From Bacteroidales bacterium (GTDB lineage Bacteria > Bacteroidota > Bacteroidia > Bacteroidales > UBA12077): DNA of 42,243 bases. The first letter of the stretch is position 1. Every line of letters starts with the position of its first letter. Location of the stretch: assembly GCA_030668615.1 (NCBI GenBank), contig DAOUTQ010000006.1, positions 1 through 42,243 of the forward strand. The letters are read 5' to 3'. Under the pieces are notes generated by a model. It did not search any database and had not been told where the DNA came from. It was given only the letters and a program-made list of their open reading frames with translations. Below, piece after piece: positions 906 through 9,831 of this stretch. The translations under genes were made by a program, and so were the position numbers.

Positions 906-3900
906 TTATTCATCATCCTTTTCAATTTCCCGTCTTATTTCTTCTAGAATATTTTCAAGCTGTTTTTTCTTGTTAACCTCACGCAATTTTTGTGCTGTAT
1001 TTGTAAAATATTGGTGATTTTTAATGAATTTATGCTGCATTTGATTCCACTCCTGAATAGAATCTATTTTCTTTCTTTCGTGATATTCTTTATATAAATT
1101 AATTGAAACCGGAACAAAATCAGCTCTACCAAGGTAATCCAGATCAGCATCACACATAATTTCTTCGAGTAGATTTTTGGGTTGAGGAGGCATCTGAGTT
1201 ACCAGTATCAATTCGCAAATTTTTTCAATTTGTTTAGGCGTATAATGATATTCGGGGAGTATTTTTTTTGCAAGTTTCATACTTTCTTCTTCATGTGTAT
1301 CATAATTTACTAAATGACCCATATCATGAAACAAGGCTGCTGTTTTAAGAATTAACATTTCTTCATCTTTAATTCTTTCAGAACGACCAATGAGTTCAAC
1401 CTGAGTTACAACATCAATGGTATGTTTTACATTGTGATAATATAAATTGTCAGGCAATCCATCTTCAAGTTTACTAAGCACAAATTCCTCTACATCGTTT
1501 ATTCTTAATATTTGCAGCTGAGTAAAAAATTCTTCATTCGGGATCTGGCCTTTTATATCTGATGCCAGATGAGGCATAAATCCTTCAACAAAATACATAT
1601 CAATTTCTCCCTTATACTTAACAGGCATTTTCCCTCTGTACTGACAAATAAAGAAATCCTTAATTAACATATATGTATTTTCAGTAATATTTATTTTACC
1701 TGGCTTGCCCGACGCTTCCATTCTGCTTGCAGTATTAACCGTCCCTCCCCAAATATCATAAGATATTTTACTGCGACCTAAAACTCCTGCTACAACAGGG
1801 CCTGTGTCTATTCCAATTCTTAAATCCCAGATATGTTTTGAATCATCCTTTATCTGTGATTTTAATTCTTTCATGAAGTTTTGCATTTCAAGAGCGGCAA
1901 CAACAACTTCAACAGGATTGGTTCTGTTTTTTGCAGGTATTCCTCCGGCACACATATACGCATCACCAATCGTTTTTATTTTTTCAATATTGTATTTTTC
2001 AGCAACCGTGTCAAATTGTAAAAAGAACCTGTCAAGCTCATCAATCAGGAGTTCCGAATCCATTTGTTCTGATATTTTTGTAAATCCCTGTATATCAGAA
2101 AACAAAACTGTAACCATATTGTAGTGGTATGGACCAGCTTTTTTACCAGATTTTAGTTCTTTAGCTGTAGTTTTAGGAAGCACCCTTTCCAACAGATTAT
2201 CTGCCTTTTCTTTTTGAATTACAACTTCTTCTGTTCGTTCATGAATAATGTTTTCTAATCGGAATCGTTCACGTGCAAAATAGTAAGCTCTCCATTTTGC
2301 TATCAATATAAATAATAATATTGAAGTAATTATATAGATAAAAAAAGCAGAAGTTGTTCGGTAAAAAGGAGGCTTTATTGTAAACTCATATGTGTTAACA
2401 TCAGAAACAGAATTAAAAAGATTTTTTGCCCTAACTTTAAATTTATACTTACCTTCAAAAAGATTTGTATACTCTTTAAAGTTTAATTTTGACCACTCCA
2501 ACCAATTTTCATCAAATCCTTCCAGCATATATTGATATAATATTTGATTTTCACTTTCATAGTCGGTTGCACAAAATTCGAAGGCAATTGTATTTAGATC
2601 ATAACTAAAGTTTCTCGATATTTCTTCTTTTTCTATTGAACGCCCAAAAGGCTGTTTATAAACTACAGAATCTATTCCAATAGTTATTTTGTGAAGTTTA
2701 ACATTATAATTACTATTAACTGGCAACTCATTTTTCATATTTAAATGAATCAAACCCTCAAATCCACCAAACCATACTATACCATTAGAATCAGGATGTA
2801 TTGATGTTATAAAAAAATCTTCAGCTCTATTTAATGGTAATGGCTTTAAGGTTTTTAACGAATCGTCTTTATTATTCCTAAATAATGTTTTATTTGAATT
2901 ATTGTTTTTTCCTATTACATTCAGCCACAAATTCTTATTTTCATCTTCAATAATTGGGTAAACCCAACTATATTCAGATATAAAATCAATATCAAGCACA
3001 GTATCTTCGTAAAATAATTCTTTTTTATTATTAAATCTGTAAATGCCTCTTGAAGTTGAAAATAGCATCCCTGAACTAAGGTTATATAGATTAATCCATT
3101 CCAGATTTTTAGGTAATATATTATCTTTATTATATAATGAAAATTTTAAATTTTTTGAATAACTCTCAAAGGGATCAATTTTGTAGATACCGCTTCTGTT
3201 AGCCGACAGCCATAAAGTTCCATCAGGTTCTTCAACAATACTTGTTATTTTATGATTTATTCCATTAATTTTTTTCTCAATAATGAGCATTCCTCCTGTA
3301 AATCTAATTGCAGAAAATCCATCATTATAACCAAGATACAAATACTCAGGTTTTTTTGTTGATCGTAATACACTTGTTATTTGTCCGGCATCTCTATTAT
3401 AAAAAACAAAAGCATTCTTTCCTGTAATTTCGTATATTCCTTTAGAAGATGTAACAAAAAGCTGATTATTAAATTGGTGGAAATCGTGGCATCCGGATTT
3501 AATATCTGATATATGTTTAAAAATCTGACAACTTGGGCAATCTCTGTTATCTTCTGATAATTTTTCTAAATAATATACTCCAGCTGAAGTTGCCACATAT
3601 AGGGTGTTCCTGAATCTGATAACTGAAGTCACATTGCCTTTTAATCCATGATTTTTATTAAAATAACTGTAAGGAGACGGAATTTCAATTCTGCTAATTC
3701 CTTGATTATGCAAAGCCCACAGATTATTATTATTATCAGCAAACAGTTTGTTCACCTCAGAATTAAACAATCCGGCAGATTCATTAATTGTCGAAATTAT
3801 TTCCCCCTTTTTGTTAATTACTATTATTCCGGAAAGCTTGGTGCCAATAGCATAATTTCCGTTATTTAACACACAGGTTGCAGAATATAAATTATCAGAA

Positions 3901-4652
3901 ACAAACAGATCTGCTTCTGTTTTAAAATGTTCAACGGAGTAATTGCTATATAAATAAAATCCTTCTTCCTTTGCTGTTTTAATTAATAATTGTTCATTAA
4001 ACGGAAGCATATCTATAATATCCTTCTCAATAAAAAAATCACTTCCCGGGATAAATATGAATTGACTATTAACTAATTTAAATATTCCTTTTTCTTTTTT
4101 TTCAAGATAAATCTGATCGTTAACCTTGAATAAATCAAGCCTTTCTTGACTATTTTCAATAACGGAAATGTTATTACCGTCCCATTTGAAAAGGATCTTG
4201 TCTGAACAATAATACACATCTTCTTGGGTACAAGCCACATCGTTTATTTGTCCAAAGTTTTTCAGTTCAGGGCTTAATGAATCACTAAGCGAATAAAAAT
4301 AAGATTCTCCAGATGCTTTATTACCAACAAACCCAAAATCATTTTCTCCGCCAACATAAATTATTCCTTTATTATTAATATCCATAAAAGGAGTTCCGGG
4401 AACTTTTAATATTTCAAAGAAATATCCATCAAACTGTATGATCCCATTTGCATTGCCTATATAAATGACACCTTTAAAATCCTGTATTATTGAAAAATTG
4501 TTGTTATTAATACCATAATTGTTTAGAATTATTCGTTGTATATATGGGTTGCCAATATTCTCAGAAAAACCAGTATTTGAATAAAGGAATAAACAAATTG
4601 ATAGAATGAAGGAAAAAAGTGTATTTTTATGAAAATTTGCTTTAAAATACAT
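906..4652 (-). CDS. Membrane sensor: beta-propeller/Y_Y_Y, class III adenylyl cyclase and PDE-like HD domain
   Basis: 1248 residues. A signal peptide (about 1-30) is followed by repeated propeller blades of the two-component-regulator type (NLWALHNQGISRIEI, TLWLSANRSGIYKID, IVWFGGFEGLIHLN). A Y_Y_Y-like Ig domain spans about 660-762, one TM helix about 768-787, and a short helical linker follows. The class III cyclase domain (about 846-1025) keeps both metal Asp (D853 in FSDIQGF, D897 in GDAYM), the ATP-selecting Lys/Asp pair (K893 in IKTIGD, D966 in YDIWGG) and N973/R977 in TVNTASRM, so adenylyl cyclase activity is predicted. Residues about 1060-1190 form an HD domain whose YHNxxH (H1073, H1077), HDMGH (H1109/D1110) and DAD (near D1170) resemble cyclic-nucleotide phosphodiesterases. 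Such sensors usually end in a histidine kinase, so this output is unusual. Phosphodiesterase activity is inferred. Confidence 0.9.
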   Translation of the reverse strand: MYFKANFHKNTLFSFILSICLFLYSNTGFSENIGNPYIQRIILNNYGINNNNFSIIQDFKGVIYIGNANGIIQFDGYFFEILKVPGTPFMDINNKGIIYVGGENDFGFVGNKASGESYFYSLSDSLSPELKNFGQINDVACTQEDVYYCSDKILFKWDGNNISVIENSQERLDLFKVNDQIYLEKKEKGIFKLVNSQFIFIPGSDFFIEKDIIDMLPFNEQLLIKTAKEEGFYLYSNYSVEHFKTEADLFVSDNLYSATCVLNNGNYAIGTKLSGIIVINKKGEIISTINESAGLFNSEVNKLFADNNNNLWALHNQGISRIEIPSPYSYFNKNHGLKGNVTSVIRFRNTLYVATSAGVYYLEKLSEDNRDCPSCQIFKHISDIKSGCHDFHQFNNQLFVTSSKGIYEITGKNAFVFYNRDAGQITSVLRSTKKPEYLYLGYNDGFSAIRFTGGMLIIEKKINGINHKITSIVEEPDGTLWLSANRSGIYKIDPFESYSKNLKFSLYNKDNILPKNLEWINLYNLSSGMLFSTSRGIYRFNNKKELFYEDTVLDIDFISEYSWVYPIIEDENKNLWLNVIGKNNNSNKTLFRNNKDDSLKTLKPLPLNRAEDFFITSIHPDSNGIVWFGGFEGLIHLNMKNELPVNSNYNVKLHKITIGIDSVVYKQPFGRSIEKEEISRNFSYDLNTIAFEFCATDYESENQILYQYMLEGFDENWLEWSKLNFKEYTNLFEGKYKFKVRAKNLFNSVSDVNTYEFTIKPPFYRTTSAFFIYIITSILLFILIAKWRAYYFARERFRLENIIHERTEEVVIQKEKADNLLERVLPKTTAKELKSGKKAGPYHYNMVTVLFSDIQGFTKISEQMDSELLIDELDRFFLQFDTVAEKYNIEKIKTIGDAYMCAGGIPAKNRTNPVEVVVAALEMQNFMKELKSQIKDDSKHIWDLRIGIDTGPVVAGVLGRSKISYDIWGGTVNTASRMEASGKPGKINITENTYMLIKDFFICQYRGKMPVKYKGEIDMYFVEGFMPHLASDIKGQIPNEEFFTQLQILRINDVEEFVLSKLEDGLPDNLYYHNVKHTIDVVTQVELIGRSERIKDEEMLILKTAALFHDMGHLVNYDTHEEESMKLAKKILPEYHYTPKQIEKICELILVTQMPPQPKNLLEEIMCDADLDYLGRADFVPVSINLYKEYHERKKIDSIQEWNQMQHKFIKNHQYFTNTAQKLREVNKKKQLENILEEIRREIEKDDE

Positions 4653-4752: not shown

Positions 4753-5583
4753 ATGAAAAACGACAATCACATTATTTTAATTCCGTGGGATTTTACACCT
4801 GTTGCTGATTGCGCTTTATTGCATGCATATAAATTTGCTGAGAAAGCAGATAGTAAAAAAATTGTATTAGTTCATATTATTAAAAATGATAAAGAAGAAG
4901 CTGAAGCTCAGAAGAAACTAAACGAAGTTGCAGATAATAACAGAGGTAAGAATGGATTAGAAATTGAAGCAATAGTAAGAAAAGGAACTATTTTTACAAC
5001 AATTGGAGAAGTTGCTTCTGAAGTAGATTCTGAGTTAGTTATTATGGGAACTCATGGTCTTAAAGGAATGCAGAAACTTACTGGTAGCTGGGCTCTTAAA
5101 GTAATTGTAAGTTCAAAAGTGCCTTTTGTTGTTGTGCAAGAAAATCCTAACGAAACTGATTTAAGAGACATTGTATTACCGATTGATTTTAAGAAGGAAA
5201 GCAAGGAAATGCTTAACTGGGTGAATTATTTGCAAAAAAACTTCAATCCTAAATTTCATATTGTAAAACCAAATACAACTGATGTTGGTTTTATTAAAAG
5301 AATAAAAGCAAATATTGTTTTTGCTAGGAAAATAATGGATGCAAAAGGAATAGATTATGAAATTCATACTGCTGAAGGAAAAAAGAATTTTGGCATTGAA
5401 ATAATGGAGTTTGGAAAAAGCATTAATGCCGATTTAATTTTAATTCTTACTACCAAAAACATTGGATTAGCTGATTATGTTATTGGAGCTCAGGAGCAGT
5501 ATATTATTGCAAACAGCTCAAAAACACCAGTAATGGTAGTTAATCCGAGAGACGATTTAACTGTGTGGGAAGGATTTCATTAA
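4753..5583 (+). CDS. Universal stress protein, tandem UspA domains
   Basis: 276 residues made of two UspA-type domains (about 1-130 and 140-270). The first opens with IILIPWDFTPVADCAL and ends with the nucleotide-binding motif GTHGLKGMQKLTG, close to the family GxxGx9G(S/T) pattern, suggesting ATP binding. The second opens with DIVLPIDFKKES and has a poorer motif (LTTKNIGLADYVIGAQ), so it may not bind nucleotide. The protein is cytoplasmic with no signal peptide. Family members act in stress physiology without a single defined reaction. The gene is divergent from the cyclase receptor across 100 bp and is followed by a strong terminator, so it is probably monocistronic. A role linked to the neighbouring cyclic-nucleotide receptor is possible but not shown. 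Confidence 0.9.
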   Translation: MKNDNHIILIPWDFTPVADCALLHAYKFAEKADSKKIVLVHIIKNDKEEAEAQKKLNEVADNNRGKNGLEIEAIVRKGTIFTTIGEVASEVDSELVIMGTHGLKGMQKLTGSWALKVIVSSKVPFVVVQENPNETDLRDIVLPIDFKKESKEMLNWVNYLQKNFNPKFHIVKPNTTDVGFIKRIKANIVFARKIMDAKGIDYEIHTAEGKKNFGIEIMEFGKSINADLILILTTKNIGLADYVIGAQEQYIIANSSKTPVMVVNPRDDLTVWEGFH

Positions 5584-5611
5584 AAAAATTTGAAAACGAA
5601 TATATAATTAT

Positions 5612-5643
5612 GTGGATGACCAGAAATGTCATCCACTTTTTTT
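5612..5643 (+). terminator. Rho-independent terminator after the usp gene
   Basis: A perfect 9-bp stem GTGGATGAC/GTCATCCAC with a 7-nt loop is followed at once by a run of seven or eight T. It lies 28 bp after the stop at 5583. Confidence 0.85.
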
Positions 5644-5651
5644 AAAATATT

Positions 5652-6227
5652 ATGGAATTAGTATTTGCCACAAATAATCAGCATAAACTGAAGGAAGTTC
5701 AGTCTATGCTTGACGACAGAATCAAACTCCGAAGTTTAAAAGAAATAGGTTGTGTTGGGGAAATTCCTGAAGATTTCGAAACCCTTAAAGAAAATGCTGC
5801 ACAAAAAGCACATTATGTTTTTGATAAATACAAAATAAATTGTTTTGCTGACGATACAGGTCTTGAAATTGATGCTTTAAATGGAGAGCCAGGTGTTTAC
5901 TCAGCAAGATATGCAGGAGAATCTTGTTCATTTGTAGATAATATGAACAAAGTTCTTGAGAAACTACAGGGAGTAGAAAACAGAAAAGCGTGTTTTAAAA
6001 CTGTTATTGCTCTGATAATAGATGGGAAAGAGTACTATTTTGAGGGACAAGTAGATGGTGAAATTCTTACAGAGAAAACTGGTTTGGATGGTTTTGGATA
6101 CGATCCGATTTTCAAACCGGAATCTTATGATTTGTCTTTTGCACAAATGTCTTTGGATGAAAAAAATAAAATAAGCCATCGTGCAAGAGCTACCAAAAAA
6201 TTAGTAGAGTTTCTAAAAAATCGGTAA
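5652..6227 (+). CDS. rdgB: Non-canonical purine NTP pyrophosphatase, RdgB/HAM1 family
   Basis: 191 residues, the usual length for this family. It hydrolyses XTP, ITP and dITP to the monophosphate plus pyrophosphate, keeping deaminated purines out of DNA and RNA. Diagnostic motifs are all present: N-terminal FATNNQHKLKEV, the metal/substrate segment FADDTGLEIDAL followed by GEPGVYSARYAG, FGYDPIF near residue 155, and the C-terminal KNKISHRARA. The ATG at 5652 lies directly after the usp terminator. The gene ends 49 bp before the probable porZ start, so the two may be co-transcribed; the pairing is positional and no functional link is known to me. Confidence 0.95.
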   Translation: MELVFATNNQHKLKEVQSMLDDRIKLRSLKEIGCVGEIPEDFETLKENAAQKAHYVFDKYKINCFADDTGLEIDALNGEPGVYSARYAGESCSFVDNMNKVLEKLQGVENRKACFKTVIALIIDGKEYYFEGQVDGEILTEKTGLDGFGYDPIFKPESYDLSFAQMSLDEKNKISHRARATKKLVEFLKNR

Positions 6228-6276
6228 TGATGACAATATCTTGAAGAAAAAAGGGTTTTTGATAATAAATCAATTG

Positions 6277-8562
6277 ATGAAAAAACATTTTCTAATCCAA
6301 CTTTTTTTTATACTTACCGCTTACATTTCATATGCACAAATAGGCATTGGAGAGTGGCGTGATCATTTGCCATTTACATACTCAAGACATATTGCAGAAT
6401 CCCCAACAAAAATTTATGTTGCTTCTGAAAGCGGAATATTTTCGTACAGTAAATCAAACCAAAATGTAGAAAAGCTTACAAAAGTTAATTTGCTTTCAGA
6501 TATTGGTGTTTCGGCAATTGAATATTCCGATGAAAATAATTTATTAGTTGTCGGATATTCAAATGGGAACGTCGATTTAATTTTCGATAACGAAGTTTAT
6601 AATATCTCTGACATTAAAAGAGAAATGATAAGTGGTAGTAAATCAATTAATCACATTTTATTTATTGATGAATATGCTTATTTATCCTGCGGATTTGGGA
6701 TTGTAGTTGTAAATATCGAAAAAAGAGAAATAAAGGAAACCTATTTTATTGGTACTCTTGGAACGCAAGTTCATGTTAATCAGCTATTCTTAAGTAATAA
6801 TTTCTTATATGCGGCAACCAACCAAGGAGTTTATATTGCTGATTATTACAATCCTAATTTAGCTGATTACTCTAATTGGCAGATAATTACTGATATACCA
6901 TCATATACATCTAAATTTAATTCGATTTACGTAAACAATGGTGATATATTGGTGAATCAGGTAAATGAGGCTTCAAACGACAATGTTTATTTATATAAAG
7001 ACTATTCCTGGAGTATCTTTAATAATAGCTATAGTTCTGTTAGTAAGATACATTATGCTAATAATCGCATACATATAATTACTGACACTGATGTTTTGGT
7101 ATATGATTCTGAAATAAATCCAATAACCTCGGTTACCAATTCGGAAATTACAAACTTTCATCCATACGATGCAATTACAACAGAAAGTAATGTGTATTAT
7201 ATAGCCGATAACGGAAGAGGATTAATAAGATATCAAAATGGAACCGAGGAGACTATTGTGCCAAATGCACCCTATTTATCCAACGCCTTTACTATGGATA
7301 TAAAGAATGAACGTGTTTTGGTTGCTGCAGGAGGATTGAGTCCTTCTTTTGGTAATGTTTTCTTAAATGGCATCTTATTTTCGTTTCAAAATGAGAGATG
7401 GATATCGGTTGCCAATTATGATGCAGTAGATTATATCTCTGTAGAAATTGATCCATACAATTCAGATCATTATTTTGCCGCAAGTTGGGGGAACGGGTTG
7501 GTTGAATACAGAAATAATGAAATTATTGAAACCTATAATGAAACAAACAGTTCTTTACAATCTATGATACCAGGAGATAATTTTTGCCGTATTTATGGAT
7601 TAGCCTACGATAGTGAAAATAATTTGTGGATTACCAACTCTGAAGTAACCAATCCGGTATCTGTTTTAACAAGCGAAGGCGATTGGTTTAGCTTTAATTA
7701 CGACGAAGAAATTAGCAATTTAAGAACAGGAGATATTATTGTTACAGAAAGTGATCAAAAATGGCTTGTTTTACCTAATGGTGAGGGCTTATTTGTTTTT
7801 GATAACAATGGAACAATAAGTGATGAAGAAGATGATCAGTATAAAAAATTAGATATACTTGATGAAAATGGGAAAGTTATATCAAATGGTATATATTCAA
7901 TTGCTGAAGATTTAAATGGAGAAATTTGGGTGGGAACTGATCTGGGAATTGTAATTTATTCTAACCCTGAAAATGTTTTCGAAGATGGATTTTATGCACG
8001 AAGAATAATACTTACAATAGGAGAGATTACACAGTATTTGCTAAATACAGAATTAGTGACATCAATTGCTGTTGATGGTGCAAATCGAAAATGGATAGGA
8101 ACACAAAACTCTGGTGTATACTTAGTTTCAAAAGATGGGACAGAAGAGATAAATCATTTTACTTCTGAAAATAGCCCTTTATTATCTGATAGGATTAACA
8201 ATATTGCAATAAACCATGAAAGCGGTGAAGTGTTTTTTGCCACAGACAAAGGATTAATTTCGTATCGAGGTACTGCTACAATGGGTAGTGATGATTTCAG
8301 GGATGTTTATGTTTATCCAAATCCGGTTCGTGAGAATTATGAAGGCGATGTTACAATTCGTGGATTAGCTTCAGATGTAAATGTTAAAATTACAGATATA
8401 AGTGGCAATATCGTTTATGAAACGGATGCAGAAGGTGGTCAGGCCACATGGAACGGACGAAATTTCTCTGGAAGTAGAGTTAGTACTGGAGTATATCTTG
8501 TTTTTTGTACTAACGACGACGGATCAAAAACTCACATAACGAAACTTCTTTTTATAAAATAA
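6277..8562 (+). CDS. porZ: PorZ-like T9SS surface protein: beta-propellers plus type A sorting domain
   Basis: 761 residues from the ATG at 6277. A TTG at 6241 is in frame, but only the ATG puts a normal signal peptide (MKKHFLIQLFFILTAYISYA) at the N-terminus. The mature start IGIGEWRDHLPF and the segment SGIFSYSKSNQNVEKLTK...LLSDIGVSAIEY match my memory of PorZ, a Porphyromonas T9SS component of about 776 residues that delivers anionic LPS to the sortase machinery. Blade-like repeats (NLWITNSE, EIWVGTDLGIVIY, RKWIGTQNSGVYLV) continue to about residue 670. The last 85 or so residues (YVYPNPVRENY...ITDISGNIVYE...TGVYLV) form a T9SS type A sorting domain. It probably acts on the outer surface. 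PorZ is the most likely identity; a generic propeller T9SS cargo is the alternative. Confidence 0.85.
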   Translation: MKKHFLIQLFFILTAYISYAQIGIGEWRDHLPFTYSRHIAESPTKIYVASESGIFSYSKSNQNVEKLTKVNLLSDIGVSAIEYSDENNLLVVGYSNGNVDLIFDNEVYNISDIKREMISGSKSINHILFIDEYAYLSCGFGIVVVNIEKREIKETYFIGTLGTQVHVNQLFLSNNFLYAATNQGVYIADYYNPNLADYSNWQIITDIPSYTSKFNSIYVNNGDILVNQVNEASNDNVYLYKDYSWSIFNNSYSSVSKIHYANNRIHIITDTDVLVYDSEINPITSVTNSEITNFHPYDAITTESNVYYIADNGRGLIRYQNGTEETIVPNAPYLSNAFTMDIKNERVLVAAGGLSPSFGNVFLNGILFSFQNERWISVANYDAVDYISVEIDPYNSDHYFAASWGNGLVEYRNNEIIETYNETNSSLQSMIPGDNFCRIYGLAYDSENNLWITNSEVTNPVSVLTSEGDWFSFNYDEEISNLRTGDIIVTESDQKWLVLPNGEGLFVFDNNGTISDEEDDQYKKLDILDENGKVISNGIYSIAEDLNGEIWVGTDLGIVIYSNPENVFEDGFYARRIILTIGEITQYLLNTELVTSIAVDGANRKWIGTQNSGVYLVSKDGTEEINHFTSENSPLLSDRINNIAINHESGEVFFATDKGLISYRGTATMGSDDFRDVYVYPNPVRENYEGDVTIRGLASDVNVKITDISGNIVYETDAEGGQATWNGRNFSGSRVSTGVYLVFCTNDDGSKTHITKLLFIK

Positions 8563-8610: not shown

Positions 8611-9831
8611 TTAATCAGTTACTTTTCTTATACAACGCACTTGTCGTCTTGCATTTGCTCCGGTATCATATCTTTTTCCATCTTCGAAATTTTTCTCAAA
8701 CATAGCGCTTGTTGATCCCTGTCTTTTTGGTGTTGAAGACCAGTACCAAGTTCCGATCATATTAAGAGCAATTCTATTATTATACATAAAATCAAGGATG
8801 TCAATTGTAGGTAATTCCCAATCATTATATCCATAGGCAGAAGAACTTTCGCATGCATTACGAGCTTCTTCCCATCTATATTCACCTGAAATATCTTCTG
8901 GCATTACTTGATAATCAGTACCATATATGCTAAATTGCCATACCCCATCAGCATCAACTAAATTAACTACTCCATTGCTATGTACACATCTAACAAAAGA
9001 TTTTGCTTTAGATGCTGCAGGAACTAATTTATCAGCATCAAATGCCTGACGAAAATAGACATTACTTTTTTCAGGAGAAGCAGACCAATACCAATAAGTT
9101 TGCATATTTCGTAACTGCGACTTATTAGCAAACATTCTTGATATCTCAAGTTTATTAGGTAATCTCCACTCTGTTAGTCCGTAAGCATTACTTTCTAAAC
9201 AAGCCTGATTAGCTTCTGGCCACGTTGTTTTTGTTGGAGTACCATCAATCGGCATAACCAATAAACTCAAGCCCATCATATTTAATTCAATTAAATCTTT
9301 TGAATCTGAATCATCAATTACATATTTTGGTTGACTTGAACTAGTTGATCGATTCCTAACTGATGCTCCTTGTTGTTGTAACATTGCCCTTGAAACAGTT
9401 GAGACAACGGTAAATAGATCATCTAATCCTGATTGTGTAATTCCAGTATTTTGTCTTTCAATTTTAGCTGTCATTACATCTACCATTTTACATGAAATAT
9501 AGTAGTTTCCTCCAACCGATGATATTGATGCATAACACACATAATTAGCTCCCATTTTCTTACCCAATTCACCAATCTGTCCATCATCAACATGACCAGT
9601 CATTTGGAATTTGTTTTCAGCTATTACTTTATTAATCAATTCACGCTCCAAAACCGTAAATCCTAAAGTATTTACAACAGCATTACTTAGCTCTTCACGG
9701 ATAATAATTTTTAGGTTGTCAGAGACTTCTCCTACAGGATCAAATACAGCTACTTTTTTATCTTCTTGACCATTCACCAAGCCAATTGCAGCAAAAACAA
9801 GAATAATGATTAATAGGTTTATTTTATTCAT
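8611..9831 (-). CDS. Exported CsgG/LpoB-like domain protein with two DUF1566 repeats
   Basis: 406 residues. A signal peptide (about 1-21, ending LVNGQ) precedes a CsgG/LpoB/TolB-N-like alpha/beta domain (about 25-155: KVAVFDPVGEVSDN, FTVLERELINKVIAENKFQMTG, LGKKMGANYVCYASI). Two DUF1566 (Lcl C-terminal) repeats follow, at about 186-285 and 296-402. Each has the pattern W..A...C, a YG..(D/E)W.LP segment, a YWYWS or WYWSS core and a final RC; the Cys pair in each may form a disulfide. It is probably a periplasmic or outer-membrane lipid-facing protein, though no lipobox Cys is evident. It lies 11 bp after an LPP20-like gene, and CsgG-like and LPP20-like proteins often occur together in envelope assembly. 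Function is not established. Confidence 0.8.
   Translation of the reverse strand: MNKINLLIIILVFAAIGLVNGQEDKKVAVFDPVGEVSDNLKIIIREELSNAVVNTLGFTVLERELINKVIAENKFQMTGHVDDGQIGELGKKMGANYVCYASISSVGGNYYISCKMVDVMTAKIERQNTGITQSGLDDLFTVVSTVSRAMLQQQGASVRNRSTSSSQPKYVIDDSDSKDLIELNMMGLSLLVMPIDGTPTKTTWPEANQACLESNAYGLTEWRLPNKLEISRMFANKSQLRNMQTYWYWSASPEKSNVYFRQAFDADKLVPAASKAKSFVRCVHSNGVVNLVDADGVWQFSIYGTDYQVMPEDISGEYRWEEARNACESSSAYGYNDWELPTIDILDFMYNNRIALNMIGTWYWSSTPKRQGSTSAMFEKNFEDGKRYDTGANARRQVRCIRKVTD

Follow-up and report, generated by a model that had tools for sequence, protein, structure and literature searches.

In the window, by which we mean the whole stretch of 42,243 nucleotides analysed here, an open reading frame with an ATG start encodes P0001, a protein in which a propeller, a Y_Y_Y domain and a transmembrane helix are followed by a class III cyclase and an HD domain (Table 1). 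Pfam places Reg_prop at residues 614-630 of P0001 (38.2 bits, cut-off 20.4) and Y_Y_Y at residues 697-760 (45.9 bits, cut-off 26.6), and the periplasmic part resembles 3v9f and 4a2l, two sensor structures solved from hybrid two-component regulators of Bacteroidetes. The hydrophobic N-terminus fits a signal peptide by inspection, and the protein has a single strong transmembrane segment. P0001 thus shares with the Bacteroidota hybrid two-component and Y_Y_Y receptors a periplasmic propeller, a Y_Y_Y domain and one transmembrane helix ahead of a cytosolic output, but this output is a cyclase-HD pair, whereas theirs is made of histidine kinase, receiver and AraC domains; Pfam found no kinase family in P0001. 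The Usp-Ham1-PorZ block, transcribed divergently from the receptor gene, accompanies it in many Bacteroidales. PorZ is part of type IX secretion, and a protein with a CsgG-like N-terminus and Lcl_C domains (window 8611-9831) adjoins porZ.

Table 1. Position of the receptor gene, its domains and the divergent neighbours in the window
Feature	Position	Strand	Basis
Propeller-Y_Y_Y-TM-class III cyclase-HD protein P0001, 1248 aa	906..4652	-	ORF and Pfam
Periplasmic part, residues 1-766: putative signal peptide, Reg_prop propeller, Y_Y_Y (697-760)	2355..4652	-	Pfam, match to solved sensors; signal peptide by inspection
Transmembrane helix, residues ~766-788	2287..2357	-	Hydropathy 1.9-2.4
Putative signalling helix / cyclase-transducer segment, residues ~790-842 (...ADNLLERVLPKTTAKELKSG...)	2127..2286	-	Function predicted
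Class III nucleotidyl cyclase domain, residues 843-1024	1581..2126	-	Pfam, model
C-terminal HD region, residues 1026-1248, proposed cyclic-nucleotide phosphodiesterase	909..1577	-	Metal ligands H1077, H1109, D1110, D1170; H1073; Q1206
Divergent neighbours Usp, Ham1, PorZ	4753..8562	+	Context; marks conserved locus

The cyclase domain was identified by Guanylate_cyc (PF00211), which matches residues 843-1024 with 175.8 bits against a cut-off of 21.9 and covers profile positions 5-183 of 183. Consistent with this, the model of the domain aligns with class III cyclases at a Z score of 25.6. All six essential residues are present, namely D853 and D897 (metal), K891 and D966 (ATP selection), and N973 and R977 (transition state). 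The earlier note, made from the letters of the sequence, had reported both metal aspartates and the Lys/Asp pair for ATP selectivity, and these are indeed D853, D897, K891 and D966; the residues that it named for mutation (D897, H1077 and H1109) carry the right numbers. Judging from this domain and its residues, P0001 should make cAMP. The same six residues are kept in every propeller protein examined (12 of 12, P0001 and 11 others). The proposal of one transmembrane receptor that carries both a cyclase and an HD domain was borne out, as Pfam finds the domains, both sets of residues are present and the pair is conserved.

Fold and active site of the HD domain

Residues 1076-1170 of P0001 match the Pfam family HD (PF01966) with 30.7 bits against a cut-off of 22, the score ranging from 30.7 to 34.7 across searches. 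The match to PDEase_I (PF00233) reaches 17.8-20.4 bits, below the cut-off of 24.8, and involves the first 46 profile positions only. Because this cut-off was tested and missed, the HD domain of P0001 was kept out of PF00233, and its classification by Pfam as a class I phosphodiesterase (PDE) was rejected. Similarity to the PDE profile nevertheless runs through the family, with PDEase_I matches at E≤1 in 53 of 56 homologues (best 1.5e-4); a lack of any likeness to PDE profiles, which the earlier note had named as grounds for refutation, was thus not the outcome. The HMM search that the earlier note had suggested therefore supported PF00211 and HD, both over their cut-offs, and fell short for PDEase_I, at 17.8 bits.

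Comparison with solved structures gave a mixed picture. By sequence, the best PDB matches are 2pq7 (1.5e-5) and YedJ (7.6e-5), with PDE9A at 0.0076. The AlphaFold2 model of the domain is confident (mean pLDDT 92.6); Foldseek puts the HD hydrolases 2pq7 and YpgQ on top with PDE5 near behind, and VIA-align returns a tie between PDE10A (Z 17.4, 197 residues, 3.1 Å), 2pq7 (17.1), the choanoflagellate RhoPDE (16.8) and YpgQ (16.4). Structure prediction, also suggested beforehand, thus yielded a confident fold and placed PDE10A level with the HD hydrolases in VIA-align, while the first Foldseek places went to the hydrolases. Among more remote families, the closest is a separate group of HD hydrolases (L207-L213, E 7e-13), which we take to resemble COG4339. 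The statement that the domain is closer to class I PDEs than to plain HD hydrolases could not be maintained, as Pfam scores HD above PDEase_I and the leading sequence and Foldseek matches are 2pq7, YedJ and YpgQ. Because PDE10A and the HD hydrolases tie, and generic HD proteins come first by sequence, fold and family assignment alone leave the HD substrate undecided.

The bacterial hydrolases YpgQ, YedJ and 2pq7 are like the P0001 domain in fold size and in the H...HD...D motif, and we know of no cyclase linkage for them. Class I PDEs (PF00233; PDE2A, 4B, 5A, 9A, 10A and RhoPDE) share with it the HD fold, the HNxxH...HD...D pattern, a putatively equivalent glutamine and VIA-align Z scores of up to 17.4, but P0001 has about 200 residues in this domain against about 300, lacks the long PDE insertions and stays below the Pfam cut-off. 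The leading PDB matches, the Foldseek order and the nearest distant family would all suit an HD domain that is a phosphohydrolase of the YpgQ/YedJ kind, acting on another nucleotide (dNTP, NMP, ppGpp or a cyclase by-product) and merely helping or tuning the cyclase. We consider this unlikely, on account of the active site and of the gene linkages described below.

The detail that favours a phosphodiesterase is the predicted active site, with its HNxxH motif, the missing phosphatase Arg and a Gln1206 that hhalign places on the PDE glutamine. H1073, H1077, H1109, D1110, D1168 and D1170 are all present in P0001 and are invariant in 91 of 91 HD-intact family members (query included). Over the HD region, most of these members share about 50-65% identity with the query; because the ligands are kept throughout at such identities, the HD motifs are not a product of chance, and the YHNxxH, HDMGH and DAD-type motifs read in the earlier note are real. 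HD phosphatases have an Arg three residues ahead of the first metal His (PMC8177086). Position 1074 is Asn, Asp, Ser or Thr in 91 of 91 members, and the absence of the Arg expected under the rule for YfbR, SpoT and dGTPase-type enzymes argues against a phosphohydrolase of another nucleotide.

Class I PDEs bind the purine with a conserved glutamine (PMC8177086). We aligned by hhalign the HD clade that carries Gln at position 1206 (Q-clade) with PDE2A, 4B, 5A and 9A, whose sequences were checked against PDB entries. The match has P=6e-5 over 139 columns at a probability of only 65%, and it pairs H1077, H1109, D1110 and D1170 with the PDE ligands, E1189 with the conserved Glu, and the invariant Q1206 with the Gln of LQISF (PDE2A). 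The unrealigned match is just 41 columns around HNxxH...HD, and hhalign in global mode gave no meaningful alignment between the HD domain and the PDEs. D1168 as a metal ligand was dropped for D1170, which is favoured by hhalign and by the pattern of losses in group B (see below). Gln1206, an argument that was noticed post hoc, marks one strongly supported HD clade (SH-aLRT 100) holding all cyclase-fused and most cyclase-adjacent members, and HD relatives outside it have Asn, Thr, Ser or similar at this position. This specificity for the cyclase-linked clade is not what a hydrolase of some other nucleotide would lead one to expect. We file P0001 as a class III cyclase with an HD-superfamily domain that putatively acts like a class I PDE.

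Conservation of the cyclase-HD pair and its relatives

The cyclase-HD query matches 72 genomes in 98 relatives (some via the cyclase alone), and propeller-type orthologues occur across the whole genus at 79-96% identity. In a contig scan of GTDB genomes, 80 loci were fetched, among them loci of the cultured Perlabentimonas gracilis, Marinifilum breve and Thermophagus xiamenensis. The survey of domain order that had been proposed gave a clear answer, the cyclase-HD fusion being found in 80 of 80 of these related Bacteroidales loci, and the pairing of cyclase and HD domain is conserved across the order Bacteroidales. A chance fusion or an assembly error is ruled out by these 80 loci from independent genomes and by relatives at the level of genus, family and order, which show the fusion as well.

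Four forms of the protein were distinguished: propeller (about 1225-1290 aa), middle (about 630 aa), short (about 475 aa) and group B (about 620 aa). Group B keeps the cyclase residues in 20 of 20 proteins and has lost H1109 and D1170 in 20 of 20, and D1110 in all but one. Members such as L074:9579-11453, L080:9535-11421 and L121:9587-11470 (and 17 more) lie beside porZ, usually with ham1, and represent a natural knock-out of the HD catalytic site. PorZ genes adjoin group B in 20 of 20 loci and propeller forms in 7 of 11; because both sit beside porZ, group B corresponds to the window gene by position.

Since these paralogues with a dead HD site are retained, the HD domain may be non-catalytic in some members. 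This observation raises the question of whether the domain is mainly regulatory, binding a nucleotide or metal and setting cyclase activity with no need for hydrolysis, as a group that has lost its ligands still keeps the HD region next to an intact cyclase at the same locus. For P0001 this is quite improbable, as the ligands are strictly conserved in the 91 other proteins, every propeller one included, and mere binding would not require the full catalytic set in all groups but one.

At least one essential cyclase residue is missing in 28 of 91 HD-intact members, all of them short and middle forms, Thermophagus L126 and L146 being examples with an intact HD site. Such proteins could suggest that the cyclase-like domain, silent or weak as an enzyme, serves as an ATP/GTP sensor that gates a phosphodiesterase, a reading that we find very hard to credit given that every cyclase residue is intact in P0001 and in all propeller homologues examined (12 of 12). 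Loss of both sites occurs in 0 of 111 proteins (Fisher 0.0015, a count that is not independent, as group B is nearly one clade). A strict split of labour within a paralogue pair, one acting as the cyclase and the other as the HD enzyme, was not upheld: where a locus has a copy with a dead HD site, the short copy next to it nearly always keeps the checked cyclase residues (one is truncated there and one has Glu for D966), and degenerate cyclases are mostly in genomes other than those with an HD-dead copy.

Linkage to cyclases extends to stand-alone HD relatives. Of 40 such relatives from a phylum-wide sample, found with a P0001-derived query and having neighbours that share ancestry, 8 have a class III cyclase gene no more than 5 kb away (expected 0.36, P=8e-10). 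Adjacency to a cyclase is seen for 9 of 18 Q-clade members versus 3 of 36 others (P=0.001), and in a sample of the class Bacteroidia a class III cyclase is present in 15 of 15 genomes with an unfused Q-clade HD protein versus 19 of 53 (P=8e-6). Cyclase and HD neighbours are on the same strand in L148, L158 and L192, and in L148 two cyclases lie directly upstream of the HD gene. In the tree, the Bacteroidales cyclase-HD fusions form one supported clade; because the fusions L189 and L190 sit outside it, fusion to a cyclase probably arose more than once, repeatedly within the same HD clade. Repeated fusion and adjacency to class III cyclases again speak against a hydrolase of another nucleotide.

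Several relatives have other architectures. L189:3166-8763 encodes an 1866-aa protein with the order kinase-AAA-GAF-class III cyclase-HD, in the same HD clade and outside the Bacteroidales fusion clade. L187:4102-6741 (880 aa) has a C-terminal Q-clade HD domain and faces the gene of a class III cyclase in convergent orientation, and L188:2375-4963 (863 aa) combines a C-terminal Q-clade HD domain with TPR repeats by Pfam. L194:5267-6529 and L196:4132-5322 encode an HD domain joined to PycTM (PF18967), the effector domain of Pycsar, with intact ligands and Thr/Asn at the 1206 position.

Proposed working and comparison with known systems

We propose that P0001 is a transmembrane receptor in which an adenylyl cyclase is combined with an HD phosphodiesterase for a cyclic mononucleotide, most likely cAMP, and we regard this reading as probable, though some way from secure. 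The protein would act as a homodimer, in which the periplasmic propeller and Y_Y_Y domain would sense a ligand and pass the signal through the transmembrane helix and the short transducer helix to the class III cyclase, which would convert ATP to cAMP. The C-terminal HD domain, with a fold near class I PDEs, HNxxH...HD...D ligands and a Q1206 predicted to bind the purine, may work as a metal-dependent phosphodiesterase that turns the cyclic mononucleotide, most likely cAMP, into the 5'-NMP and thereby limits or resets the signal. Gene context, repeated fusion, Q1206, the fold and the missing Arg converge, by indirect argument, on cyclic mononucleotides as the predicted HD substrate. With both sites in one molecule, P0001 could provide a local, fast-resettable cAMP level for CRP-family receptors, and might in this sense be the autonomous switch imagined in the earlier note.

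Synthesis and breakdown of cAMP by a single protein is an idea already known from plants. CAPE, from Marchantia and other streptophytes, joins a class III cyclase to a class I PDE in one chain; both activities were shown on recombinant domains, and the protein was proposed to set cAMP locally (PMC5159850, PMC8115329). CAPE consists of an N-terminal PDE, two transmembrane helices and a C-terminal cyclase, whereas in P0001 the cyclase comes ahead of the HD domain; CAPE is a plant protein, whereas P0001 is bacterial and has a periplasmic sensor. We infer that the two are parallel inventions and not orthologues, P0001 being a putative bacterial version of the same idea. The literature searched gave no report of a bacterial cyclase-HD fusion, an absence that counts as weak evidence. 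According to a review of the HD superfamily, cAMP/cGMP phosphodiesterases of the HD type occur in mammals, flies, yeast and protozoa (PMC8177086).

The HD family described here is a candidate for a general bacterial family of cNMP phosphodiesterases. Tentatively, these proteins could be widespread, so far unnamed enzymes. Members with Gln at 1206 would form a purine branch, connected to class III cyclases through fusion or a shared operon, and a second set (Asn, Thr or Ser), partly fused to PycTM, might act as an off-switch for cyclic pyrimidines; this is a possibility that we put forward with considerable doubt. If it were true, P0001 would be the first known case of a bacterial receptor that both produces and degrades its own messenger. 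To our knowledge, the end of a cAMP signal in Bacteroidota is poorly understood, and the P0001 family, with its paralogues that have lost one site, offers a natural system for the coupling of messenger synthesis and breakdown.

P0001 also has points of likeness to Pycsar (PycC and PycTM), in that the PADLOC PycC models match its cyclase domain (55.6 bits) and PycTM fusions occur among more distant HD relatives, but its cyclase residues are of the ATP type. PycTM is absent from the divergent-side neighbours (Usp, Ham1 and PorZ), the opposite side being known by its ORF starts in L067, a close relative, and a Pycsar system was rejected for the window gene, as no PycTM effector is among the neighbours scanned. 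At the level of the genome, a search limited to class II PDEs found none. Five class III cyclases and seven cNMP-binding domains are encoded in the same 3.3 Mb draft, which also has, on another contig, a second protein of the cyclase-HD kind, 485 aa long.
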